Source: Planctomycetota bacterium
Lineage (GTDB): Bacteria > Planctomycetota > Phycisphaerae > UBA1845 > UTPLA1
Assembly (NCBI GenBank): GCA_015654675.1
Contig: JAATGM010000060.1
Coordinates: 62,001-126,000 of the forward strand
DNA: 64,000 nucleotides
Direction: 5' to 3'
The position numbers and the translations under genes are program-made. Position 1 is the first letter of the stretch, and the number at the start of each line of letters is the position of its first letter. Of the stretch, positions 42,108 through 49,957 are shown one piece after another. The notes beneath the pieces were generated by a model, which was not told the DNA's origin, did not search any database, and worked only from the letters and a program-made list of their open reading frames with translations.

Positions 42108-43022
42108 TTACACCCCGCTCACCTTTTGGCGAGCTGCGTGAATGTGCCCCGGTGTCGTGCCCGAAGAACCGGCCACGATTGCAGCGCCCGCGAGCCGTAG
42201 CGCCGCGGCCCGTTCGCCAAAGGCCCGGGCATCCTCCGAATACACCACTTGTCCGGCCTCAAGCTCGGGCATGCCCGCATGCGATCGAACAAAGACGGGC
42301 TGCTTTCCATGTTCCGACAGAATTGCAACCAGCGTCAGCGCGGTGTCGGGTGACGTGTAATCGCAGCCGATCACGTCCGCCCCTGCAGCGAGCAGCCGAG
42401 CTGCGCATTCGGCCGCCGGTTGTCCGGCCGCCGTCTCAAGCCGATCGGCCCCCGAGTCAAACACCAGCGCTCCGATGATCGGCCGCTTCAATGGCTGACA
42501 AGCGCGTAGTGCAATGAGCAATTCGGAAAGGTCGAGGAATCGCGCGAGTAATATCACCTCCGCTCCGCCGCGAACCAGCCATCCCGCCTGCTCGGCGAAC
42601 GTCCCCGCAAGCTCCTCCTCGCCGATTTCGCCGACGCCCATCAGCTTGCCGCTCGGGCCGATCTGCCCCGCGACGATAACGCTCGCGCCCGAATCGGACG
42701 CACTGTCAGCCGCCCCGCGCGCCACCGCGACGCCCGTTCGATTGATTTCTTCCGCCCGATCAAACAGTCCCCAGCGCTCCAGCGCCAACCGATTCCCGGC
42801 CGCGGTGTTCGTGCAGATAATCTCCGCCCCCGCGGCCACGAACTCGCGCGTCACAGCCGCAACCCATTCCGGATGATCCAGGTTTGCGGCCTCGGCCGGC
42901 AGCCCCTCATCGAGCCCCAGCGCCCGCAAGCCCGCCAATAGCGGACCGTCGCCAATCAATCCCGCCGACAGCCGCGAGGCAAAGTCACGCGCCACGCGCG
43001 CCCTCCGTGACGTCCCATTCAC
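42108..43022 (-). CDS. Homocysteine S-methyltransferase-like protein lacking zinc ligands
   Basis: 304 residues, GTG start (GGAA upstream). The fold of the MetH/BHMT/MmuM zinc methyltransferases is clear: early DGPLLAGLRALG, EIICTNTAAGN, VIVAGQIGPSG and a final GTTPGHIHAA. Active members hold zinc with one Cys in a G-x-N-C motif and a Cys pair in GGCCGT. Here those places read GCDYTSP (Tyr at the Cys position) and GSSGT (Ser286-Ser287). All three ligands are therefore replaced. The protein is unlikely to activate homocysteine thiol in the usual way; its real job is unknown. Confidence 0.75.
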   Translation of the reverse strand: MNGTSRRARVARDFASRLSAGLIGDGPLLAGLRALGLDEGLPAEAANLDHPEWVAAVTREFVAAGAEIICTNTAAGNRLALERWGLFDRAEEINRTGVAVARGAADSASDSGASVIVAGQIGPSGKLMGVGEIGEEELAGTFAEQAGWLVRGGAEVILLARFLDLSELLIALRACQPLKRPIIGALVFDSGADRLETAAGQPAAECAARLLAAGADVIGCDYTSPDTALTLVAILSEHGKQPVFVRSHAGMPELEAGQVVYSEDARAFGERAAALRLAGAAIVAGSSGTTPGHIHAARQKVSGV

Positions 43023-43149: not shown

Positions 43150-44472
43150 ATGGTTTCCGACGTGCGCCACATTCGTATCGGCGCGTTCACCGCTTGCGCC
43201 GCCGCGGCCTGTTTGGCTGTGCTCGGCTGCGAAACGGCCGACTTCGCCAACGCCAACGACGGCAACGCCAATCAACTCGGCACGCTCGCCGCGCGCGACA
43301 ACGCCACAGCTCGCGGGTTCCCGACACCCGCACCGGTATCGCTACCCGCGTCCGGAGAAACCTCCGTCGACGGATCCCTCGCAAGCGCCGACGAAGCCGC
43401 CGTCTTCTCTCTCGGGCCGTGTTCGCGTGGCGACCGCATTGTCGTTGACGTGGTTGGCGACGGCGGGCTCAACACGGTTGCTGTCCTGTTCAATTCAGCC
43501 GGAGAAATCATCGAGCTCAACGACGACCGGTCCTACTATGGCGGCCTGCTCGATCCTTATATCAGCACCACGCTGCGCGAAGACGACGGCAACGTGATGG
43601 TCGGCGTGGCGGTATCGCGTGCCCGCTATTTCGCGTCGTCGCAGGGCCGCTTTTCATCTGGCACATTTCACATCCGTCTCCGCCGCGACCCGGGGCAATC
43701 CACTCGACTGAACTCGCAGATCGTCTGGCTTGAGTTTGGCGGCGGCAGCAACATTCGCATCGCCCAGGAGGCGGCCGTCAACGTCCCGCCGTTGAGCGCT
43801 GGAGCAATCTCATCCCGCCTCGACGGCCAGACCGATTATCTGAAGGACGCGCTCGTCAGTCGCATGAACGCCGATTTCGCCGGCTTCAATGTCGCACTTC
43901 TGCGCAGCGATCGCGATACCCAGCCCAGCGGCGACTTCACCGTCATGTACTTCGGTGGCTCGAGCGACCGCTTCCTCGGCCTCTCTGACAACGTCGACAG
44001 TTACAACGCCAACGCGCGTCAGAAGTCGGTAATCTTCGCGGAGACGCTTCGCACATTTGATTACCTGAACCCCAATATCGATGAAGTCGCCCAGGGGCTC
44101 GCCAATATCGCGTCGCACGAGCTCGGCCACTTGCTCGGTCTGCAGCACACCGCCGACCCCAACGACCTCATGGCGCCGGCTGCCTCCGCCAATCAGATCT
44201 TCTTCGTCGATGCTTCGTTTCGCATTGCTCCGCTGGCCGACGATCTTTTCCCCATCGGCGTCCAGAATGATGCCCGCCAGCTTGCGCTGGGCGTCGGCTT
44301 GCTCGGTGGATTTGCGCTGGATCTTGACGGGGCGGTTCGTCAGAATTCCGCTCGGGCGCTGATCGTCGAAAACAGCGACGCGGCTCCGGCCGCCGCACGG
44401 CGCATCAACTGCGACCACGGTGCGCTCAAGTTGCCTTCGAAGAATACTGAGAAGAAGAAGCGTAGCGACTGA
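43150..44472 (+). CDS. Matrixin-like zinc metalloprotease lipoprotein
   Basis: 440 residues. Signal peptide with lipobox LAVLGC. A beta-rich pre-peptidase-like domain (about 70-180, with AAVFSLGPCSRGDRIVVDV) precedes the protease domain, whose zinc motif is HELGHLLGLQH followed by a Met-turn-like DLMAP. This fits metzincins of the matrixin type. The protein would sit on an outer or inner membrane surface and cut extracellular protein; the target is unknown. A short basic tail (KNTEKKKRSD) ends it. The convergent PilZ gene ends two bases away. Confidence 0.82.
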   Translation: MVSDVRHIRIGAFTACAAAACLAVLGCETADFANANDGNANQLGTLAARDNATARGFPTPAPVSLPASGETSVDGSLASADEAAVFSLGPCSRGDRIVVDVVGDGGLNTVAVLFNSAGEIIELNDDRSYYGGLLDPYISTTLREDDGNVMVGVAVSRARYFASSQGRFSSGTFHIRLRRDPGQSTRLNSQIVWLEFGGGSNIRIAQEAAVNVPPLSAGAISSRLDGQTDYLKDALVSRMNADFAGFNVALLRSDRDTQPSGDFTVMYFGGSSDRFLGLSDNVDSYNANARQKSVIFAETLRTFDYLNPNIDEVAQGLANIASHELGHLLGLQHTADPNDLMAPAASANQIFFVDASFRIAPLADDLFPIGVQNDARQLALGVGLLGGFALDLDGAVRQNSARALIVENSDAAPAAARRINCDHGALKLPSKNTEKKKRSD

Positions 44473-44474
44473 GA

Positions 44475-44885
44475 TCAGTTGGCCCAGCGAATCGGCGCCA
44501 GCGTGCGAATCGCCACCCGCCGCAAAGCCGCACCATTCTCCGCGGGCTCTACCCGGACCACCGCGCCTCGAAATCGAGCCCGCGACTCGAACGGCCAAAC
44601 TCCCTCGTCCGCCGGCAGCCGCAGGGTGACATCCAATGTCTCGCCGGGTTCCAGATCGTCGACAACCGTCTCCACCAGTACGCCTGCGACGCTGACATTG
44701 GTGGTGGTAGCGGGGACGTCACCGCCGCGTAGCCCGTTAAGCCGCTGCATCACAATCGGGAGCCGCAAGTCGAGCCGGCGAAACTGCCTTCGTTCGGAGC
44801 GGGCGGCCGCCCGCCGGGGCTTGCGTGGCCGGCGTTCTGCCAATACCTGATCTACGGATAAGTGCACATCCATCGCTCCCAACAT
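44475..44885 (-). CDS. PilZ domain protein (c-di-GMP receptor candidate)
   Basis: 136 residues from ATG 44885, preceded by GGAG at six bases. The c-di-GMP binding residues are in place: RRQFR in the N-terminal loop (RxxxR) and NVSVAG (N-x-S-x-x-G). A basic N-terminal arm precedes the domain. PilZ proteins link c-di-GMP to motility or polysaccharide output; pilus ATPases and an exopolysaccharide locus in this window would be natural targets, but no direct link is visible. Confidence 0.8.
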   Translation of the reverse strand: MLGAMDVHLSVDQVLAERRPRKPRRAAARSERRQFRRLDLRLPIVMQRLNGLRGGDVPATTTNVSVAGVLVETVVDDLEPGETLDVTLRLPADEGVWPFESRARFRGAVVRVEPAENGAALRRVAIRTLAPIRWAN

Positions 44886-44957
44886 CGGTAACTCCGGCAA
44901 AAAACCCCAGTTCCAGCGTCGCCACCGGCCGATAACGGGTACTACCGTCGCATTTGT

Positions 44958-46220: not shown

Positions 46221-47930
46221 ATGCCCGCCAAGCAGTTGTGTTTTGATACCGATGCTCGCACCGCCCTGCTCACAGGCGTCGAAAAGCTAGCCCAAGCCGT
46301 CAAGGCCACCCTCGGGCCCCGCGGCCAAAATGCCATTATTGACAAGGGATGGGGTGCACCGACGGTTACCAAGGACGGCGTCACTGTCGCCGAAGAAATC
46401 ACCCTGAAGGACAAGTTCGAGAACCTCGGGGCACAGCTCGTCAAGGAAGCGGCCTCCAAGACGTCTGAGTCGGCGGGTGACGGGACGACGACCGCCACCG
46501 TGCTGGCCGAGGCCATCTTCAAAGAGGGTCTCAAGAACGTCGCCGCCGGGGCCGACCCCTTCGCCCTCTGCCGCGGCATCGACAAGGCCGCCAAGGCGAT
46601 CGTCGAAGCCCTCAAGGGCCTCAGCAAGCCGATCAAGGCCGCCAAGCGGGACGACGTCATTAACGTCGCCTCGATCTCCGCCAACAACGACCGCGAAGTC
46701 GGCGAGAAACTGGCCGACTGCTTCGAGAAGGTCGGCAAGGACGGCGTCATCACCATCGAAGAAGGCAAGAGTCACGACACGACGGTCGACATCGTCGAAG
46801 GCATGCAGTTCGACCGCGGCTACCTCTCGCCGCACTTCGTCACCGATCAGGACGACATGACCTGCGTCTTCGACCGCGCCTTCGTCCTCATCTTCGAAGA
46901 AAAAATCTCCAGCGTGACGAAACTCGTCCCGCTGCTCGAGAAAGTCGCCCAGACCAAGCGTCCGCTGCTCATCGTCGCCGAAGACGTCGACGGCGAGGCC
47001 CTCGCGACGCTGGTCGTTAACAAGCTTCGCGGCATCCTCCAGATCTGCGCGGTCAAGGCCCCAGGTTATGGCGATCGCCGCAAGGCCATGCTCGAAGACA
47101 TTGCGATCCTCACCGGCGGCAAGCCCATCTTTAAGGACCTTGGCATTGAGCTCGACGGCGTAACCATTGCCGACCTCGGCCAGGCCAAGCGCGTCCAGGT
47201 CGACGCCGACAACACCACCGTCATCGAAGGTGCCGGCTCCAGCAAGGATATCCAGGGCCGCATCGAGCAGATCCGCCGCGAGATCGAGAACACCACCAGC
47301 GACTATGACAAAGAGAAGCTCCAGGAGCGTCTCGCCAAGCTCGCCGGCGGCGTCGCCCAGATCAAAGTCGGCGCGGCCACCGAAGCTGAGATGAAGCAGA
47401 AGAAGGCCCGCTACGAAGACGCCCTTCACGCCGCCCGTGCGGCCATTGAAGAAGGCGTGGTTCCCGGTGGCGGCGTCGCCCTCGTCCGCGTGGTCGGCGA
47501 GCTTGACAAGGTAAAGACGCGGACCGATGACGAAGCGACCGGTGTCGCGATCATCCGCCGCGCCATCACTGAGCCCCTCCAGACCATCGCCCGCAACGCC
47601 GGCTTCGATGGCCGCGTGGTCCTGCACAAGGTTCTGAAGTCGACCGGCTCGTTCGGCTTCAATGCCCTGACCGGCGAATATGGCGACCTGGTCAAGGACG
47701 GGGTCATCGACCCGACCAAGGTCGTCCGCACAGCCCTTGAGAACGCGTCGAGCGTTGCTCGAATCCTCCTCTCGACCGATTGCTGCATCACCGAGAAGCC
47801 CGACGCCAAGGAGAAGGGCGGCCCCGGTGGACCCGGCGGCGGCATGGACGACGAAATGGGTGGAATGGGAGGTATGGGTGGCATGGGCGGAATGGGAATG
47901 GGCGGCATGGGAGGCATGGGCGATTTCTAA
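46221..47930 (+). CDS. groEL: Chaperonin GroEL, copy 1 (with GGM tail)
   Basis: 569 residues, longer than the usual 545 mainly through the tail. All landmarks of a 60-kDa chaperonin are present: [26 protein letters not shown] with the catalytic Asp, the apical domain, and [19 protein letters not shown] with the second catalytic Asp. The C-terminus is an extended Gly-Gly-Met repeat (about 30 residues of MGGMGGMG type), longer than the 13-residue tail of E. coli. It folds client proteins inside the ring with GroES. It is followed by groES 72 bases later. Confidence 0.97.
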
Positions 47931-48337: not shown

Positions 48338-49957
48338 ATGTCCGCCAAGCAACTGATGTTCGATCAAGTCGCCCGCGAGGGCGTTCGCAACGGCGTTCGA
48401 AAGCTCGCCGCCGCGGTCAAAGTCACCCTCGGCCCCGTTGGCCGAAACGTCGTCCTGAAGAAGAGCTGGGGCTCGCCCCGCATCACCAAGGACGGCGTCA
48501 CGGTCAGCAAGGAAATCGAGCTGGCCGACCCGTTTGAGAACATGGGCGCCAAGATGGTCAACGAAGTCGCCAGCAAGACCGGCGACCTCGTCGGCGATGG
48601 CACCACGACCGCCGTCGTTCTGGCCGAGGCCATGTTCAACGAGGGCATGCGAAATATCACGGCCGGCGCCAATCCGCTGCCCGTCAAGCGCGGCATCGAC
48701 AAGGCCGTCGAAGTCGCCGTTGCCGAGATCGCCAAGCTTGCCACCAAGGTGAAGGACAAAGACGCCGTCGCCAAGGTCGCGACCGTGTCCGCCAACGGCG
48801 ACGCCGCGATCGGCAAGCTCCTGGCCGATGCGATGGACGAAGTCGGCCGCGAAGGCGTCGTGACCATCGAGGAGGGCAAGGGCTTCGAGACCGAGAAGGA
48901 AGTCGTCGAAGGAATGCAGTTCGACAAGGGCTACATCTCGCCCTACTTCATCACCGACCCGACTGACATGGAGTGCGTCCTCGAGGACTGCTACATCCTG
49001 ATTCTCGAAAAGAAGGTCAGCAATCTCCGCGACCTGGTACCGCTGCTTGAGAAATCGGTCAGCACCGGCAAGCCGCTCCTCATCATTTCCGAAGACGTCG
49101 AAGGCGAGGCGCTGGCCACGCTGGTCGTCAATCGGCTGCGCGGCATCCTCAAGATCTGCGCTGTGAAGGCCCCCGGCTTCGGCGATCGCCGCAAGGCGAT
49201 TCTGGGTGATCTGGCCGTCGTCACCGGCGGCGAGTTCATCAGCGAAGATCGCGGCCTCAAGCTCGAAAGCATCGAGCTTTCCCAGCTCGGCCGAGCCAAG
49301 AAGATCGTCGTCGCCAAGGAAGCTACGACCATCATTCAGGGCGCAGGCAAGACCAAGGACATCGAGGCCCGCTGCGAGCAGATTCGCAAGCAGATCGAAA
49401 AGACCACCAGCGACTACGACCGCGAGAAGCTTCAGGAGCGGCTCGCCAAGCTGACCGGCGGCGTGGCCGTCATCCGCGTCGGCGGCGCGACCGAGACCGA
49501 AGTCAAAGAGCGCAAGGATCTGGTCGACGACGCCTTCCACGCAACCAAGGCCGCGTGGGAAGAGGGCGTCGTCCCGGGCGGCGGCGTGACCTACCTCCGC
49601 TGCATCAAGCCCATCAAGGAAGCCGCCAAGAAGGCGGAGGGCGACGAGCGCGTCGGCATGGAAATCGTCACTCGCGCGTTGGAATTCCCCACTCGCCAGA
49701 TCGCCGAGAACAGCGGCGCGGATGGGGCTGTCATCGTCTCCGAAATCCTCGAGAAGTCGGGGGCCTACGGCTACGACGCCCGCGCGGGCGACTTCATTGA
49801 CCTCGAAAAGGCCGGCATCATCGACCCGGCCAAGGTCTGCCGCTGTGCCCTCCAGAACGCGGCCAGCGTCGCCGGGCTGCTCCTGACCACCAGCGTCCTG
49901 ATCACCGAGCTCAAGGACAAGGACTCAGAAAAGGAAATCAACGGAGCAATCCGATAA
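48338..49957 (+). CDS. groEL: Chaperonin GroEL, copy 2 (no GGM tail)
   Basis: 539 residues. The ATP-site motifs are intact ([43 protein letters not shown]). The C-terminus ends in [15 protein letters not shown] with no Gly-Gly-Met repeat, so the inner-cavity floor differs from copy 1. The two copies differ through most of their length, which means an old duplication or separate origin. A GGGAG ribosome site is present. A strong terminator follows it, closing a groEL-groES-groEL unit. Confidence 0.95.

Follow-up and report, generated by a model that had tools for sequence, protein, structure and literature searches.

A homocysteine methyltransferase-like protein that has lost its zinc ligands in a family of planctomycetes, probably as a pseudoenzyme lineage

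The window, that is, the whole stretch of 64,000 nucleotides of planctomycete DNA that was analysed, contains a short gene of the homocysteine (Hcy) methyltransferase family together with two conserved neighbours. The features of the locus are the following:

42108..43022, minus strand: zinc-less homocysteine methyltransferase-like protein (“HMTL”), 304 aa, GTG start (PF02574, AlphaFold2, Foldseek)
42945..42950, minus strand: D25-G26 in the first-strand loop, with the Asp retained in the window protein (alignment)
42543..42545, minus strand: Ala160, replacing the Hcy-amine Glu (E146 of T. maritima MetH; E159 of BHMT) (alignment)
42357..42368, minus strand: G219-C220-D221-Y222, replacing G-x-N-C, with Y222 at the first zinc Cys (C207 of T. 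maritima MetH) (sequence; HMMER alignment to 1q7m)
42162..42167, minus strand: S286-S287, replacing the Cys-Cys zinc pair (C272-C273) (sequence; HMMER alignment to 1q7m)
43150..44472, plus strand: secreted matrixin-like protein (PF00413), 440 aa, divergent neighbour (Pfam; synteny)
44475..44900, minus strand: PilZ-domain protein, second conserved neighbour (Pfam; synteny)

The fold of an Hcy methyltransferase was assigned to this protein in the original prediction, and the assignment is confirmed by profile, model and structural comparison. PF02574 covers residues 23–300 with 142.5 bits (gathering score 22), AlphaFold2 predicts a confident barrel from 38 aligned homologs (pLDDT 96.2, pTM 0.93), and the top solved match of this model in Foldseek is the Hcy barrel of T. 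maritima MetH (1q7m/3bol), with a TMq of 0.87–0.88, an rmsd of 1.4–1.7 Å and 28% identity along the whole length; the next matches are BHMT and then E. coli MmuM (TMq 0.71–0.79). The NCBIfam equivalogs all score below their curated cut-offs (metH 173.7/453, PRK08645 121.8/338, PRK07534 92.7/1011, PRK09485 52.5/215). In the window genome (4.93 Mb, 62 contigs) there are two PF02574 genes, the one that encodes HMTL and one that encodes a MetH of 1183 aa, which keeps G-M-N-C and G-G-C-C-G.

The two altered motifs are encoded on the minus strand by the codons GGC TGC GAT TAC (42368-42357) and TCT TCG (42167-42162). The HMMER alignment to 1q7m places G219-C220-D221-Y222 on G-I-N-C, with Y222 at C207, S286 and S287 at C272 and C273, and A160 at E146. 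We take C207, C272 and C273 to be the zinc ligands of T. maritima MetH and E146 to be its Hcy-amine Glu, presumably the equivalent of E159 of BHMT. The replacement of all three zinc ligands, also predicted originally, is thus borne out by both the DNA and the alignment, and with all three gone HMTL would be unable to bind zinc in the usual way, as had been proposed. The further idea that the losses are selective for the zinc ligands fails, given that the Hcy-amine Glu, the TNTF, GPSG and PNAG motifs and other residues are also gone. Cys220 was considered as a stand-in zinc ligand and rejected, as many intact relatives have a Cys here too, namely the first of their G-C-N-C motif. Both the Pfam score and the Hcy-barrel fold place HMTL within PF02574, but it lacks the three Cys and the Hcy-amine Glu by which the functional class of zinc-dependent Hcy methyltransferases is recognised; HMTL is a homolog of these enzymes that lies outside their functional definition.

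The short gene is present in 15 of the 17 genomes of the family to which the window genome belongs (the other two, G001 and G003, carry MetH only), and MetH is intact in all 17. The zinc Cys trio is absent in 13 of the 15 orthologs and complete in two (L043 of genome G011 and L047 of genome G010), while a partly intact trio occurs in none of the 15. The Hcy-amine Glu is missing in all 14 orthologs that cover its position, both Cys-intact members included; Asn206 in T. maritima numbering (Asn221 in window numbering), next to the first zinc Cys, has become Asp or Glu in 15/15, and of the 14 orthologs with coverage of the D25 position, 8 no longer have the Asp. A loss private to the window genome, or an assembly error, is ruled out, the trio being absent from 12 other orthologs.

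The outside sample consists of short homologs, 67 distinct ones from the order and class (68 rows, two of which, L084 and L103, are one gene) and 28 from the phylum sample; duplicates, which amounted to 15 of the 55 newly examined loci and 1 of the 29 in the phylum sample, were dropped. These 95 homologs were chosen from the better-scoring or listed matches and are not a census, with well over 100 further listed short homologs lying outside the sample. The zinc Cys trio is kept in 95/95 and the Hcy-amine Glu in 94/95, the exception (L120) having Gln; one row, L028, has Thr for the Asn. The trio loss is shared by 13/15 family orthologs and by 0/95 sampled outside homologs. Chance is not a sensible explanation, because the three Cys are missing together in one syntenic ortholog after another, while all the sampled outside homologs are intact. 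It had been anticipated that close homologs with intact Cys would count against the proposal. Such homologs exist, namely the sister L043 and the homologs of neighbouring families (up to 43% identity to HMTL); the observation itself stands, and their existence means that the loss is derived and recurrent.

The original prediction left room for another metal, and it could be thought that the protein is still an enzyme, which transfers methyl or another group with the help of a metal bound by oxygen ligands or with no metal at all. Such oxygen ligands could come from Y222, S286, S287, D221 and D25 in HMTL, and a MesB-type enzyme is reported to tolerate one altered zinc ligand (PMC7857596). However, across the 13 Cys-less orthologs the ligand positions are occupied mainly by G, R, L, A, P, T, S or Y, a combination that does not make up a set of metal ligands, and the Cys-less members other than the window protein have chiefly Gly, Arg, Leu, Ala, Thr, Pro or Ser there, so that there is no common metal site and the proposal of another metal finds no support. 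The amine-binding Glu, moreover, is missing in 14/14, and a surviving enzyme of this kind is improbable.

The number of losses was addressed with a tree of 43 rows, from which the fragment L042 and five duplicate loci were left out. The 14 family sequences form one clade (support 99/96), whose sister group is made up of short homologs of related planctomycetes (families f4 and f5). The clade divides into two branches, one with the window protein and L043 (100/98) and a second with the remaining 12 sequences, including L047 (100/99). A tree in which all Cys-less rows are constrained to one clade is rejected (p-AU 0.00033), which rules out a single ancestral loss of the zinc site and implies that the site was lost at least twice. 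Support for the branch that unites the remaining 11 Cys-less rows is low (71/53), and for this reason more than two Cys losses are possible. The pairing of the window protein with L043 agrees with the gene order shared by both loci; as the two branches are long (0.9 and 1.26), this placement rests on the model plus synteny. The simplest reading of these sequences is that the Glu was lost in the ancestor of the family and that the Cys would have been lost later, at least twice. Apart from MetH and L047, genome G010 has a second Cys-intact short homolog, L046 (G010:C45), which groups with family f5 in the tree and was possibly acquired by transfer.

The remodelling of the pocket goes well beyond the zinc site and, besides the Glu, has removed most of its other conserved residues. 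Among the positions with at least 90% conservation in the 67 outside homologs, those that fall below 60% in the family clade include D25, T30, N72, F74, G125, E160, T161, M199, C222, N248, P252 and C287; at the place of C286 the clade has chiefly Gly or Ser, and what has been retained is for the most part the glycine and proline framework. Three new residues are consistent. Asp27, directly after the Gly of the DG loop, is found in 12/12 members of the second branch; in the other two changes, Phe replaces Tyr61, and Asp or Glu replaces Asn221. The Hcy-amine Glu has become Arg in 8 of the 12 members of the second branch, and the window protein has Ala160 and Pro27. In MetH and BHMT the Hcy carboxylate is reported to be held by backbone amides where the first loop begins, and the amine by carboxylates (PMC539065). 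Judged from these residues, an Asp in the loop and an Arg for the Glu (8/12) would oppose Hcy binding. It may even be that the pocket of the 12-member branch is charge-swapped and not just eroded, that it was rewired first for a ligand of opposite polarity and dropped zinc later, and that the window protein (Ala160, Pro27) represents a second, separate experiment, but this proposal in its entirety is unlikely.

All these changes could also be regarded as plain decay, in which a gene that is redundant beside MetH has an eroded active site, has acquired no new function and is on its way out. The evolutionary rate was expressed as the distance of the short gene divided by that of the MetH Hcy domain from the same genomes. 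This ratio is 3.37 in the window family (14 genomes, 91 pairs), whereas two families whose genes are intact have 1.49 and 1.23 (8 genomes and 28 pairs each), so that the lineage evolves, on this MetH-scaled measure, 2.3 to 2.7 times (about 2.5) as fast as its intact relatives. Decay is further favoured by the disappearance of the gene from G001 and G003, and by substitutions at the ligand positions that vary between genomes. Against decay, the ORF is full length in 14 of the 15 family genomes and is interrupted in the 15th by a contig end, the three new residues are consistent in the clade, and the barrel is predicted with confidence. The Nei-Gojobori dN/dS values of the short gene, obtained for two pairs only, are 0.075 (G006/G014) and 0.179 (G002/G013), all four genes being Cys-less, and those of MetH in the same pairs are 0.036 and 0.034. 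Since these values are low and yet above those of MetH, the short gene is under purifying but looser selection, and its function is dispensable in view of its absence from G001 and G003. Taken as a whole, decay appears rather unlikely, and the reading of HMTL as a pseudoenzyme has to accommodate the fact that fast evolution and the loss of the gene in 2/17 genomes also fit plain decay, which counts against it, as does the lack of any metabolic partner that recurs beside the gene.

The neighbourhood of the gene is conserved. The divergent pair of matrixin-like and HMTL genes occurs in 13/15 loci, that is, in 13/13 with flanking sequence, as L039 and L042 end at a contig edge; a PilZ-domain homolog lies near the gene in 8/15 loci, and a gene for a HEAT-repeat protein follows it in 13/15, the exceptions being the window and L043. 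In the window genome and in G011 this HEAT-repeat protein is encoded elsewhere, and the gene order of the window and L043 is alike, with no HEAT gene and with DsbA-like and GroEL-like genes beyond the PilZ gene. The matrixin-like protein (PF00413) has a homolog in 17/17 family genomes, nearly always adjoining the short gene, and the HEAT-repeat protein (e.g., L033:10349-12922), which looks secreted and has a weak match to a receiver-like domain, is likewise found in 17/17. The adjacent plus-strand ORFs 46221-47930 and 48338-49957 of the window match each other's homologs in the synteny search, and the same pair is present in L043; ORF 46221-47930 is presumably GroEL, by its sequence. In G001 the matrixin-like and HEAT genes are adjacent, the short gene being missing between its two usual neighbours, and tblastn found no HMTL remnant in this genome, as all matches had E values of 0.07 or worse except for one, which is the reverse frame of the matrixin-like gene.

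These neighbours bear on another suggestion of the original prediction, that of a regulator, taken here as one that would sense homocysteine or methionine through the old pocket and act on methionine metabolism. The fold has been retained, and pseudoenzymes often turn into regulators. However, Pfam detects no DNA- or RNA-binding domain within the 304 aa, the residues that hold Hcy in MetH and BHMT are those that were lost, and the recurring neighbours are matrixin-like, PilZ and HEAT-repeat proteins and not methionine genes; no recurring operon with methionine or corrinoid genes was found among the 15 loci. With neither an extra domain nor a recurring regulatory neighbour in its favour, the suggestion is highly improbable. 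The intact homologs of other families share no neighbour theme (10 ORFs in 5 loci). Upstream of L082 (JAJXWV010000063.1, Acidobacteria bacterium), a short Hcy methyltransferase with its Cys intact, lies an ORF that presumably encodes a corrinoid-binding protein, the usual kind of partner, which the window gene is without. In genome G053, a class I cysteinyl-tRNA synthetase-type gene (L004:3-1406, minus strand) lies directly after an intact short Hcy methyltransferase.

The reading that we prefer, and consider probable, is that HMTL belongs to a pseudoenzyme lineage that descends from a short zinc-dependent homocysteine S-methyltransferase and has a rebuilt, metal-free pocket, and that it is still selected and at the same time dispensable. 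What was found is an ortholog group without the catalytic residues and under purifying selection (15/17 genomes, 13/15 Cys-less), as such a lineage is defined. In the proposed sequence of events, the Hcy pocket would have been rewired first, in the ancestor of the family (Glu lost, Asn206 to Asp), which would have made the zinc thiolate chemistry useless, and the Cys would then have been dropped in separate branches, the whole set each time. HMTL would no longer activate a thiol through zinc or make methionine, a task that would fall to MetH, and it is most likely a metal-free barrel that binds some other small ligand or a protein partner.

What defines this enzyme family is zinc thiolate chemistry, and an ortholog group with two Cys-intact members, about a dozen Cys-less ones and the Glu gone from all exposes the order of events, first the substrate site and later, repeatedly, the metal site, an order that is rarely open to view. 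The group also offers a small set of foldable natural proteins for asking what a metal-free Hcy barrel does, and it calls for caution in annotation, as such genes, with their good Pfam scores, would be annotated as homocysteine S-methyltransferases.

In the open-licence literature that was searched, no paper on zinc-less PF02574 proteins was found. Several known systems share one part or another of this picture. The barrel of T. maritima MetH and HMTL have the same fold along the whole length and the same glycine framework, but HMTL has neither the zinc Cys nor the Hcy-amine Glu and is a stand-alone single domain without folate and cobalamin modules. The short stand-alone PF02574 methyltransferases of related planctomycetes (f4, f5) have the same length, are up to 43% identical and are its sisters in the tree; unlike HMTL, all those sampled keep C207/C272/C273, and their evolution relative to MetH is slower by a factor of 2.3 to 2.7. 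BHMT and MmuM, which share the Pfam family and the fold (TMq 0.71–0.79), both need the Cys trio. According to one paper on BHMT, activity is abolished when C217, C299 or C300 is mutated, and the D26 and E159 mutants are strongly impaired (PMC9713302).

A parallel for the loss itself comes from another family. A MesB-like clade of Chloroflexales is reported to have lost its zinc ligands (FSHG, YCDQ and YREQ for HCEC), and the authors propose another function for it (PMC7857596). These proteins resemble HMTL in being a clade within a methionine synthase family without zinc ligands, but they belong to the MetE/Mes family, have a different ligand set and have no detectable sequence kinship to MetH/PF02574 (PMC539065). 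The latter source also holds that the N-terminal barrel of MetE and uroporphyrinogen decarboxylase are thought to descend from the zinc/Hcy barrel, with the binding of both metal and Hcy lost (PMC539065). Those losses are ancient and lie in fused or distant proteins, whereas the loss in HMTL is recent and recurrent, and took place within one ortholog group.
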